From the NCBI RefSeq assembly GCF_002109325.1, contig NZ_CP015348.1:897001-961000 (forward strand): DNA of 64,000 nt, in the 5' to 3' direction. Positions 25,662-32,446 of the stretch are shown here, in pieces. Each line of letters begins with the position of its first letter. Position 1 is the first letter of the stretch. The notes beneath the pieces were generated by a model. That model worked only from the letters and a program-made list of their open reading frames with translations, made no database searches and was not told the origin of the DNA. The position numbers and the translations under genes were made by a program. Origin of the DNA: Sporosarcina ureae (lineage in GTDB: Bacteria > Bacillota > Bacilli > Bacillales_A > Planococcaceae).

Positions 25662-25706
25662 AAGACACCCGAAACTTCAACTGAAGTTTCGGGTGTCTTG
25701 TTTTCT
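25662..25706. terminator. Terminator after the DHH-CBS-nucleotidyltransferase gene
   Basis: A perfect 18-bp stem (aagacacccgaaacttca and its complement, 2-base loop) ends in a T-rich tract. Confidence 0.9.
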
Positions 25707-25732: not shown

Positions 25733-27130
25733 TCAATCTTTTTTACTCTTACATATTTCCAGAAACAAGACTATACATGTCGCTAAAATCGCAGACAATT
25801 TAGTAGTTTCTCTGTCTAGACTTACTCTCGCACTTATTTTAAGTGGTACCTCTTCGACTTGGCACTCTTTATCTTCTCGTTCCATTATGTCCTTTTCACC
25901 TTGTGTATTCGTTTCCTCAACTATATTTTTACTCTTGATAAATTTATCGTAAATAAGGTTGATCACTATACTAAAGAAAAGTAATTGTAATAAAAAACCA
26001 ATAAACATTTCTAACACAACTATAAAGCGTATATTTCCATTAGGAATTACATCACCATACGATCCACCAAAGAAAGTAGTGCCACTTAAATATAGATAAT
26101 CACCTAAATCATTCAGATGATCTGTCCCGCCATTTACGGAAATATGATCTCCTATAACTTCTTTGTCGTCAGTGTATATTTTTCCCGAAAAGAAATCCTC
26201 TTGAGTTATATGAACTATTCGTGGATTATCAAATACAGCATACACAAATGTAAAATAAGAAATAACTACTAGGACTGACCCGACAATGAGGGCACTTAAC
26301 TTCTTGATATTCAATATTTCTATGTGTTTCAATATGAATTTAGATAGAATGTAAAAAATAACTAGTATGATAATTAAACAGATTCCTAAATATATCATAG
26401 CAGCCATTTTATATTGAATCGCTACTATGATCACTGGAAAAGGAATAAACAATAAGGAAATGAATCCATAGAACAATCCTGACCAACTCGGAATATTTGA
26501 TAACTGTTTTATAGTGAATAGCAAGTACATCAAGTTAACTATACTAATTACCGCTAATACTTTATATATTCCTTTCCCCATAATAACTTCCGAATTGCTT
26601 ATCGACTTGCTTTGATAACGGATGCCCCAAATCCCTGATTGATTATCTTTAGCCATCTTTTCCGCATGTAAAAAACGCATTTTATAGTCTGGTTTAATTA
26701 GGTCGTCCATATTAGCTAAACCTTCCGCAACAATTAACTCATTTATAGTTAGATCATCATCAGCTGAAAAAGATATGAGATAGTCGTCCTGTTCAACTTC
26801 CTTCAAGTAAATAGTTTTGTTTAATAGAATCTTTTCAATTTCATTTACAGCATCTTGCTGATCAAAAGTAACTATATCCTCCACAAACAGTACTGCGTCT
26901 TTTATTTTTTTAGATTCTATTTTTAGTGGAGCCTCTTCAAAATTCCCTTTAAACTCTTCGTACTCTTCGAACATACTAGTTGAGATGCCATAAAGATGAA
27001 TTCGATTCGTGTCATTGACTTCTATAGTATAAGGATCGATAATCTTCGTCACAGTATTCTCTTCAGCGGATGACACATCGGGAAATAAAATGATAAATAA
27101 TACGACTACACATAGCTTGAATATCTTCAC
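25733..27130 (-). CDS. Membrane protein: nuclease-fold-like extracytoplasmic domain fused to K+-channel-like pore
   Basis: The 465-residue protein starts at GTG after GAGGAGTG. Signal peptide at residues 1-22; residues 25-170 resemble a thermonuclease (SNase/OB) fold: VTKIIDPYTIEVNDTNRIHL, INELIVAEGLANM, FLHAEKMAKDNQSGIWG. The Arg/Glu catalytic set of active SNases is not visible. Four membrane segments follow (about 190-207, 217-239, 245-268, 279-300), then a pore-loop region with TTFFGGSYGDVIP at 351-363 and a last helix (368-395), resembling the two-transmembrane K+ channel module whose filter is TxGYGD. A charged tail and a further hydrophobic stretch close it. It is monocistronic. Function is inferred from two weak domain matches. 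Confidence 0.65.
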   Translation of the reverse strand: MKIFKLCVVVLFIILFPDVSSAEENTVTKIIDPYTIEVNDTNRIHLYGISTSMFEEYEEFKGNFEEAPLKIESKKIKDAVLFVEDIVTFDQQDAVNEIEKILLNKTIYLKEVEQDDYLISFSADDDLTINELIVAEGLANMDDLIKPDYKMRFLHAEKMAKDNQSGIWGIRYQSKSISNSEVIMGKGIYKVLAVISIVNLMYLLFTIKQLSNIPSWSGLFYGFISLLFIPFPVIIVAIQYKMAAMIYLGICLIIILVIFYILSKFILKHIEILNIKKLSALIVGSVLVVISYFTFVYAVFDNPRIVHITQEDFFSGKIYTDDKEVIGDHISVNGGTDHLNDLGDYLYLSGTTFFGGSYGDVIPNGNIRFIVVLEMFIGFLLQLLFFSIVINLIYDKFIKSKNIVEETNTQGEKDIMEREDKECQVEEVPLKISARVSLDRETTKLSAILATCIVLFLEICKSKKD

Positions 27131-27208
27131 TTATACACTCCTCATGTTTTTTTATACGGAGAGGCTTACAGTTTGATTTTTATGTACAGATATCTTTTAC
27201 AAATTACA

Positions 27209-27242
27209 AACACCCCAAACTCTACCTGAAATTTGGGGTGTT
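27209..27242 (-). terminator. Hairpin after the pentapeptide-repeat gene
   Basis: A perfect 11-bp stem (aacaccccaaa / tttggggtgtt) with a 12-base loop; the downstream T-tract is weak. Confidence 0.7.
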
Positions 27243-27294: not shown

Positions 27295-28629
27295 CTATTT
27301 CGAATCCGCCCTAAACCCCGATTTATCATAGCCATATTTATCATAACCATTTCTATCGTAGCCTAACTTATTAAAGCCTCTTCGGTCATAGCGCTCTTCA
27401 TCATAGCCCGACTTATCGTATCCTTCATCATCGCGATCCGTCCCGTTTCGGTGAATCCCTTGAGGAGTAAAGCCGTTGCAATCGAATCCTTTAGTATCAT
27501 ATTTCGTACCGTTCGCATGTTTGCCATCCCGATTGAAACCGTGTGGATCGTAGCCGAAACGATTATAGCCGTCTTTATTGAAGCCATTCTTATCATATCC
27601 TTGCAGATTAAAGCCTTTCTTGTCATAGCCTTGTCGGTTTCGGCCGTTCTTGCCAAAGCCTTCTCGGTCGACACCTGCTTTATTGAAGCCATCGCGATTA
27701 TAACCTTCGCGGTCGATGCCATGCTTATTGAAACCATTTACATCATAGCCTTCACTATCGTAGCCGAGCGAATTAAAGCCGGATGCATTGTACCCTGCTT
27801 TGTCAAAACCATCTCGATTGTACCCGTGCTGATCATAACCCGCTTCATCATACGTTTTTTCGCTGATATGGCCACCATCCCGTGTAAAACCTTCACGGTT
27901 GTATCCTCTTCTATTAAAACCTTGTTCATCAAAGCCTTCTTGGTCATACCCTTGTTCGTCAAATGAACTGTTATTTTTATGGACACCTTGGAAATCAAAA
28001 CCGCTGCCATCATACATCGTGCCATTCATATGCTTGCGATCGCGATTGAAGCCTCTTTTATCGTAACCAAATTTATTATAGCCTTGACGATTGAAGCCGT
28101 TCTTATCGTAACCCAAGTTATTAAACCCGTCTGTCCGATAACCTTGTGCACTGACACCGTATTTATTGAAGCCATATTTATCATAGCCTTGTTTATTGAA
28201 TCCTGCCCGATTGAAGCCGTTGACATCATAACCTTCTTTGTTATAGCCATTTTTGTGATAGCCTTGGCGATTGAAGCCATCCGCTTTATAGCCGTCTTTG
28301 TCATAGCCTTGCACGTTATAACCGTTCTTATTATAACCGTTTGCATCATAGCCGTAGCGATCATAACCCGTCCGATCAAAGCCTGCTTTATTAAAGCCCG
28401 TTGCCTTAAAGCCTTCTTTATCATAGCCTTGATTGTCATAGCCGTTTTTATCGAAGCCCTGTGCATCAAAACCATATTTATCAAAACCACTAGCATTATA
28501 TCCATGTTCATTAAACCCATGACGATCATAACCAAACTTATTGAACCCTTGTCTATCGAAGCCCTCACTGTTATAAATCGTTCTATCTGGTTCAATGTTT
28601 TTATTGTTTAACGGATCCCCATAATTCAT
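27295..28629 (-). CDS. Pentapeptide G(Y/F)(D/N)xx repeat protein
   Basis: From the ATG at 28629 the protein has 444 residues. Almost all of it is a five-residue repeat, G-[YF]-[DN]-x-x, about 80 copies, usually as GYDKNGFN-like pairs. Three islands break the pattern about 205, 262 and 383 residues from the longer start, each with a K-H/NGT-type stretch (RKHMNGTMYD, GGHISEKTYD, GKHANGTKYD). There is a single Cys and no signal peptide or membrane segment. Lys/Arg and Asp/Glu balance. GGGGGT precedes 28629; an ATG at 28644 has no ribosome site. I do not recognise a named family; surface, coat or condensate-forming roles are all speculative. Confidence 0.75.
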   Translation of the reverse strand: MNYGDPLNNKNIEPDRTIYNSEGFDRQGFNKFGYDRHGFNEHGYNASGFDKYGFDAQGFDKNGYDNQGYDKEGFKATGFNKAGFDRTGYDRYGYDANGYNKNGYNVQGYDKDGYKADGFNRQGYHKNGYNKEGYDVNGFNRAGFNKQGYDKYGFNKYGVSAQGYRTDGFNNLGYDKNGFNRQGYNKFGYDKRGFNRDRKHMNGTMYDGSGFDFQGVHKNNSSFDEQGYDQEGFDEQGFNRRGYNREGFTRDGGHISEKTYDEAGYDQHGYNRDGFDKAGYNASGFNSLGYDSEGYDVNGFNKHGIDREGYNRDGFNKAGVDREGFGKNGRNRQGYDKKGFNLQGYDKNGFNKDGYNRFGYDPHGFNRDGKHANGTKYDTKGFDCNGFTPQGIHRNGTDRDDEGYDKSGYDEERYDRRGFNKLGYDRNGYDKYGYDKSGFRADSK

Positions 28630-29022
28630 GTCGTACCCCCGCATAATTTGTTTTCGAATTCCAACTCTCTATGCATCATACTACAAAAAGGGAGTAAACT
28701 CATCAAGTTTCGCAGTATGACGATACGTAGGAAGTGAATGAATATGGGCAGGAGCACAAAAACCTACCAGATTATTTTTCTGATAGGTTGAATAAACATA
28801 TATTTTAAGCTGTAATCTGTACATTTCTTTTCATTTCGATACTTAGTCGAATCAATGCTTCTCGATCTACCATGCGCACGTCATGCAGGTGTATACGTCA
28901 CTGCCTACCTGAAACTTGAAAACGGCGTACCGGCAGACACAATAATAAATCCAACCACTTGATCTAGTAATTTTTGCTCTTTCTTCGTTCGATTATTCAT
29001 AGTGAGTCGCTCACCCTTCATT
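28630..29022. other. Intergenic region with a terminator and broken short frames
   Basis: Apart from the terminator at 28756, a minus-strand frame runs from ATG at 29000 to a stop at 28905 (31 residues, including LLDQVVGFIIVSAGTPFSSF). A second minus frame ending at 28805 reads MVDREALIRLSIEMKR. Together they may be remains of a frameshifted small gene; neither has a convincing ribosome site. Confidence 0.3.
28756..28789 (-). terminator. Terminator downstream of the SH3 protein gene region
   Basis: The imperfect stem aacctaccaga / tctgataggtt has a T-run on the minus strand, 230 bases after the SH3 protein's stop. Confidence 0.65.
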
Positions 29023-30851: not shown

Positions 30852-32081
30852 CTAGTTTGTTGTCCAATCATGTAATAACTTTCTGCTACCTTCAATAATA
30901 TCAGGTGCAGTCACGCCATATTCCGAATGAAGAGCCGACTGATTTTCACCAGCTGACGCATGCAAGTAAGTTGCCGCAATCAACGCTTGTTTTGGTTTAG
31001 CTCCTTGAGCAAGGAATGAGGCGATCAAACCCGTCAGCACATCCCCCGATCCGCCTTTGCCAAGCGCGCTACTACCTAAGGGGTTAATATACACTTCCCC
31101 TTCAGGTGTCGTGATAACCGTACGATGCCCTTTCAACACTAAATACAGCCGATGCTCCAACGCAAATTGTTTCGCTATATCCAATCGATTCGCTTCCACG
31201 TCCTGTACGGTCGTATTCAGCAAAGCACCCATTTCACCAGGATGCGGTGTAAACACTACAGGGCCATCATATACACTAATTATGTCCAGCAGATCGCGTG
31301 ATAAATACAACCCATCCGCATCGACTACAACCGCTTGTCCGTCCAATGAATGCCATAGACTTTTCATCCACTCTTCACCGCCTGCAAATCGACTCAACCC
31401 AGGTCCGACCGCCACTACGTCATACGAATTGAATGATTCTTGCTCACATGAAGTTACAGCGAGATGACCATCCGTTTCTGCCATTGGCCAAAACAGTGCT
31501 TCGGGTAACTGCGTAGCCGCCATCGGATAGATCCCTTCTGGAACACCGAGCGTCACAAGCCCCGCACCCGAATGCAATGCAGCTTTAGCAGTGAAGATTG
31601 GTGCACCTACATATGACTTCGAACCGCCCAGAACGAGCACATGACCGAATGTTCCTTTATGTCCATGTTTTGGTCGTTTCGGCAACGCATGGATGGCATT
31701 GTTTTCCGTAATCACTTGTGGCAGTTCCAGTGTAAGCTCGTCAGCTATAGAAGATGGGACTGAAATATCAACTACTTTCCATTCGCCGATATGCTCTGGT
31801 CCTTGCTGCAGGAAGAATCCAACCTTCGGGGCAACGAACGTAATCGTATAATCCGCTCGTATAGCTATATCTGCCACTTCTCCAGTATCGCTATTTACCC
31901 CGGATGGAATATCTACCGAGACGACTCTACTCCTTGATGAATTGATTAGCTCTATAACTGAGCGAACAGGCTCACGTAGTTTGCCCGTACATCCTGTTCC
32001 TAACAACGCATCCACAATGATGACGTTTTCACTTAACAATAGCTTTATATCCGGAATAAGTTCTTCTATAAAAGGCACCAT
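30852..32081 (-). CDS. nnrD: ADP-dependent NAD(P)HX dehydratase with C-terminal part of the epimerase domain
   Basis: This frame encodes 409 residues. Residues 1-125 continue a YjeF_N epimerase domain (IVDALLGTGCTG, VVSVDIPSGVNSDTG), and residues 130-409 are the carbohydrate kinase-like dehydratase (GTFGHVLVLGGSKSYVGAP, HPGEMGALL, ALGKGGSGDVLTGLIASF). The enzyme repairs hydrated NAD(P)H using ADP. The ATG at 32081 directly abuts a TAA at 32082 in the same frame as the upstream epimerase piece, so the ancestral gene was one bifunctional frame. No ribosome site precedes this ATG; translation would depend on reinitiation or readthrough. Confidence 0.85.
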   Translation of the reverse strand: MVPFIEELIPDIKLLLSENVIIVDALLGTGCTGKLREPVRSVIELINSSRSRVVSVDIPSGVNSDTGEVADIAIRADYTITFVAPKVGFFLQQGPEHIGEWKVVDISVPSSIADELTLELPQVITENNAIHALPKRPKHGHKGTFGHVLVLGGSKSYVGAPIFTAKAALHSGAGLVTLGVPEGIYPMAATQLPEALFWPMAETDGHLAVTSCEQESFNSYDVVAVGPGLSRFAGGEEWMKSLWHSLDGQAVVVDADGLYLSRDLLDIISVYDGPVVFTPHPGEMGALLNTTVQDVEANRLDIAKQFALEHRLYLVLKGHRTVITTPEGEVYINPLGSSALGKGGSGDVLTGLIASFLAQGAKPKQALIAATYLHASAGENQSALHSEYGVTAPDIIEGSRKLLHDWTTN

Positions 32082-32396
32082 TTAAAGTTTTCGATTCTTG
32101 TAGACATCATAATGAACTTTCGCATCGCCTTGCAAGGAGGATGTATTGGTAACGATAAGCATGCAAGATTTGCCTTCATCCTGTAATCGGCGAGCGATAA
32201 CAAATCCGTCTCCGCCATTATTACCTGCACCTGCGAACACGAGGAATCTTGTGTCAGGCTTATCACGGGTCAGTTTTAACAGCTCATCAGTCACTTTCAT
32301 GCCGGCGTTTTCCATAAGAATCGCCCCCGGCAGTCCAAGCGTTTCAATCGCATAATGATCCATCCGTCGCATATCCTCTCGTCCCACTGCAAACAT
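32082..32396 (-). pseudogene. nnrE: N-terminal part of NAD(P)HX epimerase, cut by an in-frame stop
   Basis: The 104 residues after ATG at 32396 (AGGGAG upstream) are the first half of a YjeF_N epimerase: DHYAIETLGLPGAILMENAG and FAGAGNNGGDGFVIARRL. A TAA at 32084-32082 interrupts the domain, and the rest continues in the same frame in the next entry. Either this is a nonsense mutation, a base-call error, or two peptides that reassemble. NnrE epimerises R-NAD(P)HX for the dehydratase. Confidence 0.8.
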
Positions 32397-32446
32397 TGAC
32401 TTCACTCCCTATAGTTGATGGAATTTTACTGACATCTTGCATACAG

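Follow-up and report, generated by a model that had tools for sequence, protein, structure and literature searches.

The protein encoded at positions 25733-27130 of the Sporosarcina ureae DNA analysed here (the window, 64,000 nucleotides) joins an SNase-like domain without a catalytic set to a K+-channel-type pore module with the filter GGSYGD. Both domains, the loss of the catalytic residues, the predicted pore topology and the conservation of the filter in two species were established computationally. We interpret the protein as a five-helix surface channel that is probably not strictly K+-selective and is regulated by its SNase-like domain on the outside, and give this reading a probability of about one half. 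The SNase-channel architecture itself is real and maintained, and it is rare in what was searched.

The gene, its site and its orthologue

An open reading frame at this position had been pointed out in an earlier note without naming the strand. It is present, encodes 465 amino acids and is read on the minus strand, 27130 to 25733 (465 codons, GTG start); its one orthologue found (see below) is intact. A likely ribosome-binding site, GAGGAG, lies 7 bases before the GTG (27138..27143, minus strand). One terminator-like hairpin (25662..25699, plus strand) is located between the channel gene and the convergent A-adding tRNA nucleotidyltransferase gene and another (27209..27242, minus strand) follows the upstream decapeptide-repeat gene; two such hairpins were found in the region versus 0.7 expected by chance. 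Since one hairpin follows the decapeptide-repeat gene and the other separates the channel gene from the convergent tRNA nucleotidyltransferase gene, the channel gene is probably transcribed alone. A simple scan for a promoter-like site between the 27209..27242 hairpin and the GTG found none. The G+C content of the channel gene is 32%, versus 41% for the window.

We also considered other origins. A passenger reading frame or chance match was rejected after reading both strands and in view of purifying selection relative to the orthologue (see below). The protein had no match on plasmids at E 1e-5 or in phages at E 0.01, while six stretches of viral contigs matched and none was confirmed; thus the plasmids, phages and viral contigs searched gave no indication that the gene derives from a phage or a mobile element. 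PADLOC gave no defence-system annotation, only the weak SNase profile SNc+LTD (E 2.3e-4, 18.5 bits), and the only NCBIfam match was PspC, far below its cut-off (17.1 versus 136 bits).

Two neighbouring genes are worth recording. The upstream gene (27295-28644, minus strand) encodes a 449-amino-acid protein that is built mostly from decapeptide repeats of the G-[FY]-[DN] type and scores below the cut-off of Pfam Decapeptide. In relatives it is about 88% conserved and lies next to the tRNA nucleotidyltransferase gene. The bifunctional NAD(P)H-hydrate epimerase/dehydratase gene (30852-32405, minus strand) is present as two adjacent reading frames in one frame with an in-frame stop between them; in the relative L077, it is a single reading frame of 530 amino acids.

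Within the family, 2 of 261 genomes had a full-length match, and a search at the level of the order gave the identical tally and rows. In the overlapping samples of the class and the phylum, 1 of 398 genomes matched in each case, which was the window's own. Within Sporosarcina, 2 of the 68 genomes encode the protein. A contig scan covering 84,980 species, which detects close relatives only, yielded 26 stretches matching the pattern, of which one was confirmed: Sporosarcina sp. P34.

The site could be followed through the tRNA nucleotidyltransferase gene, which has a near-full-length match in 18 Sporosarcina genomes besides those of the window and P34. Of these 18 genomes, 8 were inspected at the site. 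Five (G228, G196, G230, G195 and G229) have the decapeptide gene next, without any reading frame of at least 100 amino acids in between, and lack the channel gene there. Other genes follow the tRNA nucleotidyltransferase gene in G194 and G198. In G231, the closest genome by tRNA nucleotidyltransferase (98%), the contig ends at the site, and no channel match was found in this genome. On this contig (L072, G231:C50), 178 bases remain beyond the final tRNA nucleotidyltransferase codon that was matched. Judged by eye, the terminal bases of the contig resemble one end of a mobile element, a possible reason why the channel gene is missing in G231. The P34 genome (G197) carries the channel gene at the same site as the window. 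This pattern fits a gain of the gene in the ancestor of the two species, perhaps followed by a loss in G231; loss in other lineages is a possible alternative to gain.

The P34 orthologue is 91% identical, has equal length and an identical filter and pore. The GGSYGD filter is thus not an artefact of one genome. Between the two genes, 49 changes are silent and 40 alter an amino acid (dN/dS 0.20), and neutrality was rejected over the whole protein (P = 1.8e-12, two sequences). S5 (residues 273-303) and the stretch from the pore to S6 (345-398) together showed 0 amino-acid versus 12 silent changes. For these segments neutrality was likewise rejected (P = 1.6e-8), and their constraint exceeded that of the remaining protein (Fisher P = 4e-4); both figures come from a small sample of two sequences and from a segment split chosen by us. 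Silent differences between the species occur at three codons in and next to the filter (352, 355 and 358), and the turret and the ectodomain change more than S5 and the pore/S6 stretch. The 12 silent changes without a single amino-acid replacement argue that the odd filter is maintained.

A K+-channel-type pore with an altered filter

T-V-G-Y-G filters are among the most conserved of all channel sequences. Residues 338-393 of the window protein matched Pfam Ion_trans_2 (PF07885) with 26.6 bits versus a curated cut-off of 22.5 (E 5.6e-6), and in a genome search for Ion_trans_2 the protein reached 34.6 bits and was the sole match at E 0.001 in its own genome. In alignments with relatives GGSYGD (residues 355-360, 26051..26068, minus strand) stands in place of T-V-G-Y-G-D, and it aligns to the K+-channel filter without gaps. 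Together, the Pfam score and this alignment bear out the earlier note, which had seen a K+-channel-type pore with GGSYGD for TVGYGD. Beyond Ion_trans_2 and SNase, Pfam returned only a sub-threshold Flu_B_M2 match and no substrate-binding domain (most matches above E 0.1 were filtered).

To judge how unusual the filter is, we compared 32 relatives that were picked by similarity and not by motif, with a fetched locus and a match starting after residue 300; L042 (match from 278, filter SIGYGD) and several weaker matches without a fetched locus were left out. Their filters were SVGYGD (17), SIGYGD (5), TIGYGD (4), SIGFGD (3), TVGYGD (2) and AGGYGD (1). That is, 31 of the 32 carry [ST][VI]G[YF]GD, and the Gly at the position of Ser357 is kept in all 32. 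The one AGGYGD belongs to a small channel (L035:1450-1842, minus strand), which likewise departs at the T and V positions. Most similar to the C-terminal part are reading frames of 131-200 amino acids from Bacilli, Planococcaceae among them; three longer ones of 289-318 amino acids also belong to this set and are counted in the 32. Among the 68 Sporosarcina genomes, Ion_trans_2 had 22 matches, 17 of them with T[VI]GYGD; the other five comprise one TMGYGN, two VNTG without GYGD, and this protein with its orthologue. Both VNTG alignments (L061 and L066) come from a single genome, G187.

The K+-channel signature, worded as TXXTVGYG in excerpts of one paper (PMC6385376), is replaced by T-F-F-G-G-S-Y-G in the window protein. 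In KcsA, the residue at the position of Ser357 is G77, where, according to sections of another paper (PMC5711375), constriction is linked to non-conduction. Ser357 in place of Gly77 may hence hinder a K+-type filter, and this is the main reason for doubting conduction.

Profiles of the channel alignments reached KcsA, KirBac, K2P and Lmo2059 in the PDB, while the window protein alone matched no PDB chain at E 1. When viral contigs were searched for K+-channel relatives with one of the channel alignments, 20 stretches matched and none was confirmed.

After the signal-like start, hydropathy analysis placed helices near residues 187-205, 220-238, 244-262, 278-296 and 375-393. Combining hydropathy with a structural model, we predict (all on the minus strand) membrane helix 1 at residues 187-207 (26510..26572, ends approximate), helix 2 at 217-239 (26414..26482, broken near prolines, pLDDT about 56), helix 3 at 244-265 (26336..26401) and helix 4, the S5 of the pore module, at 275-300 (26231..26308). 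A long acidic turret (301-341, 26108..26230) follows, part of which is under pLDDT 50 in the model. The model and Pfam Ion_trans_2 then indicate a re-entrant pore helix (342-353, 26072..26107), and the model places helix 5, the S6, at 367-401 (25928..26032). By hydropathy, the protein ends in a charged tail (402-465, 25736..25927) with a weaker hydrophobic stretch at 442-460.

The model covers residues 180-402 as a monomer and was folded with 53 sequences: the P34 orthologue and 52 viral-contig channels, which among the matches listed were fetched by the pattern T-[VIM]-G-Y-G-D, so that they have a canonical filter by construction and are no census. Folding was limited to these residues because the composite alignment, in the rows listed, laid SNase fragments partly over the pore; a whole-protein model from two sequences was unusable (mean pLDDT 34.6). 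The restricted model had a mean pLDDT of 70 and a pTM of 0.55, with blocks of about 79-92 pLDDT for the pore helix, the filter and most of S6, 71-89 for S5, which it placed at residues 275-299, and 56-76 for helices 1-3. The earlier note had made its reading depend on TTFFGGSYGD forming a re-entrant loop, and in the model the filter does follow the re-entrant pore helix. The model thus supports a pore but is no independent proof, because the 52 canonical channels that guided it lean the fold that way. Among the listed fold families that the comparison covered, its best structural matches were KirBac channels (Z 10.9, rmsd 2.1 over 104 residues); for helical proteins, a Z of this size does not settle the fold. 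Foldseek found no match at E 0.001 or better (best E 0.075).

Three helices before S5 are the number needed for an outside N-terminal domain when the P-loop enters from outside; if it does, the topology fits such a location of the domain. The loop 266-279 (3 K/R, 1 D/E) lies inside in this arrangement. The voltage-gated six-helix plan does not apply: three hydrophobic helices precede S5, not four, the third has one Lys (Lys264) and no Arg, and the second is split in two in the model.

An acidic SNase-like ectodomain

The protein begins with a signal-peptide-like hydrophobic stretch (residues 1-22 by hydropathy, 27065..27130, minus strand) that ends in SSA directly before EE, the cleavage site being placed by eye. 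Pfam and a profile alignment then identified an SNase-like domain without catalytic set (residues 25-172, 26615..27058, minus strand). The Pfam SNase match (PF00565, residues 93-168) passed by a narrow margin, with 22.3 bits versus a curated cut-off of 21 (E 1.9e-4). A profile of 45 SNases, built from a non-redundant set of genome and viral-contig proteins (the SNase scan contributed the best 80 of its 266 confirmed matches), aligned to the first 185 residues with 41 bits over two stretches, 17-51 and 94-177. The unaligned stretch inside the domain is an insertion of about 40 residues (52-93).

We take D21, R35, D40, E43 and R87 (SNase numbering) to be the catalytic residues of SNase. In the profile alignment DGDT becomes DPYT and VRLIGIDT becomes IHLYGIST, so that D21, R35 and D40 correspond to Tyr34, His45 and Ser50 of the window protein. 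E43 falls into the unaligned insertion and R87 into a gap, and neither has a counterpart. Asp32 and Thr35 are what remains of the DGDT motif. The earlier suggestion of an exported SNase domain stripped of its catalytic set hence agrees with the profile alignment.

The ectodomain (25-172) has a net charge of -15 in 148 residues, or -10.1 per 100 residues, and none of the 45 SNases compared is as acidic (nearest -9.2 per 100). The insertion contributes -7; without it, the ectodomain carries -8 in 106 residues and is exceeded in acidity by that one of the 45 (-9.2 per 100). The strong acidity of the ectodomain and the loss of the catalytic arginines disfavour nucleic acid as its ligand. Loss of nuclease activity is likely but not proven, because some degenerate domains stay active: excerpts of PMC5900569 describe SN domains of Tudor-SN as active despite mostly degenerate catalytic residues. 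Compared with the secreted thermonuclease or SNase family (PF00565), which it resembles in sequence over residues 17-177, the window protein has lost the catalytic residues, carries insertion 52-93, is strongly acidic and continues into a channel.

Known systems and possible function

The earlier note proposed a new bacterial ligand-gated channel architecture. In this width the claim does not hold, since bacteria are already known to have channels in which a K+-type filter is combined with an extracellular ligand-binding domain, with 12 'Group 1' proteins of the GluR0 kind described in parts of PMC2950845. The features that look new are the filter, a pore that is not inverted and an ectodomain of SNase type. 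GluR0 and other prokaryotic glutamate-receptor channels are likewise bacterial and place an extracellular ligand-binding domain on a pore with a K+-like filter, but their substrate-binding-protein domain is split by the pore and the pore is an inverted K+-channel pore (excerpts of PMC2950845 and PMC6385376). In the window protein an SNase-type domain precedes a pore expected to enter from the outer side, and Pfam detected no GluR0-type two-part glutamate-binding domain flanking the pore. NaK is a second comparison, a K+-channel pore fold in which a changed filter lowers selectivity. Its filter is TVGDGN with only sites S3 and S4 kept (PMC9822992), whereas the window protein has the inner T-V-G changed and Y-G-D kept.

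Closer to hand, the small K+-channel-like proteins of Bacilli share S5, pore helix, filter position and S6, but they have no SNase domain, one helix before S5 (by eye) instead of three, a mostly shorter turret and a canonical filter in 31 of 32 cases. A protein of another Sporosarcina (L062:1495-2418, minus strand) also has an accessory domain before a pore module with a changed filter, TMGYGN, but there the domain is pentapeptide-repeat-like (by eye). In open-access papers we found nothing on an SNase-channel fusion or on such odd filters.

We infer a conducting tetramer of altered selectivity that is gated by its ectodomain. Each subunit would consist of an exported SNase-type domain outside, three membrane helices, the S5-pore helix-filter-S6 unit and a cytoplasmic tail, and four subunits are expected to form one pore. 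With the outer Y-G-D kept and Thr, Val and the first Gly of TVGYGD replaced, the inner ion sites would be altered, which favours a monovalent cation pore of weak selectivity over a channel strict for K+. Probably without nuclease activity by now, the acidic domain outside would most likely control opening or assembly by binding a putative ligand there, for which a protein, protons or cations are better candidates than nucleic acid. Ion_trans_2 and SNase scores over cut-off, small canonical channels as best relatives of the C-terminal part, the topology of the model and its KirBac matches, the three helices before S5 and the constraint on S5 and pore/S6 all count for a channel. Counting against it are the Ser at the Gly77 position, a full protein known from two sequences only, the best Foldseek E of 0.075, the absence of a PDB chain at E 1 and the canonical channels guiding the model.

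Part of this evidence can be read differently. The pore module might be a non-conducting relic that serves as scaffold for assembly or as membrane anchor, with the protein acting as a sensor or surface-binding protein through its SNase-like domain. The inner T, V and G are all replaced, including the Gly that all 32 relatives keep, and kinship to channels says nothing on conduction; pure scaffolding, however, would not predict that S5 and pore/S6 are the most conserved segments, where none of 12 changes alters a residue. We regard this reading as possible yet somewhat doubtful. An ordinary K+ channel, in which the SNase part is passive or stabilising and GGSYGD still selects K+ by virtue of the kept Y-G-D, seems unlikely to us. 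A K+-handling role is conceivable for the sole Ion_trans_2 match at E 0.001 in the genome, and the AGGYGD of L035 indicates that the T and V positions tolerate change, but 31 of 32 relatives keep [ST][VI]G[YF]GD and a protein found full-length in only 2 of 68 Sporosarcina genomes is not a housekeeping channel.

It is quite improbable that the exported domain is still an active nuclease, merely anchored by a channel-derived membrane part. The Tudor-SN precedent (excerpts of PMC5900569) and the remaining Asp32 and Thr35 speak for activity; against it stand Tyr, His and Ser in place of D21, R35 and D40, the missing counterparts of E43 and R87 and a net charge beyond that of all 45 SNases compared. 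Least credible is a recently arrived or decaying chimera without function. The low G+C content, the presence in two species only and the absence from the same site in five close relatives would suit it, but both copies are intact, with a dN/dS of 0.20 and P = 1.8e-12 against neutrality.

Returning to the regulated surface channel, a bolder version of it is that the protein represents an undescribed receptor-channel, in which a retired exported nuclease domain serves as outside sensor that opens a K+-derived pore, with GGSYGD passing other cations. We hold this version only tentatively. Pentameric channels in bacteria couple an outside ligand to a pore. If true, the receptor-channel would be a further bacterial coupling of this kind, beside the glutamate-receptor-like and the pentameric channels. 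A naturally maintained GGSYGD in a K+-channel scaffold offers a direct test of how much conduction and selectivity need TVGYG. How pores came to be gated by outside domains is a further question to which the fusion is relevant, as a secreted enzyme domain was apparently recruited here, on a short evolutionary branch on which presence and absence of the gene can still be compared at the same site.
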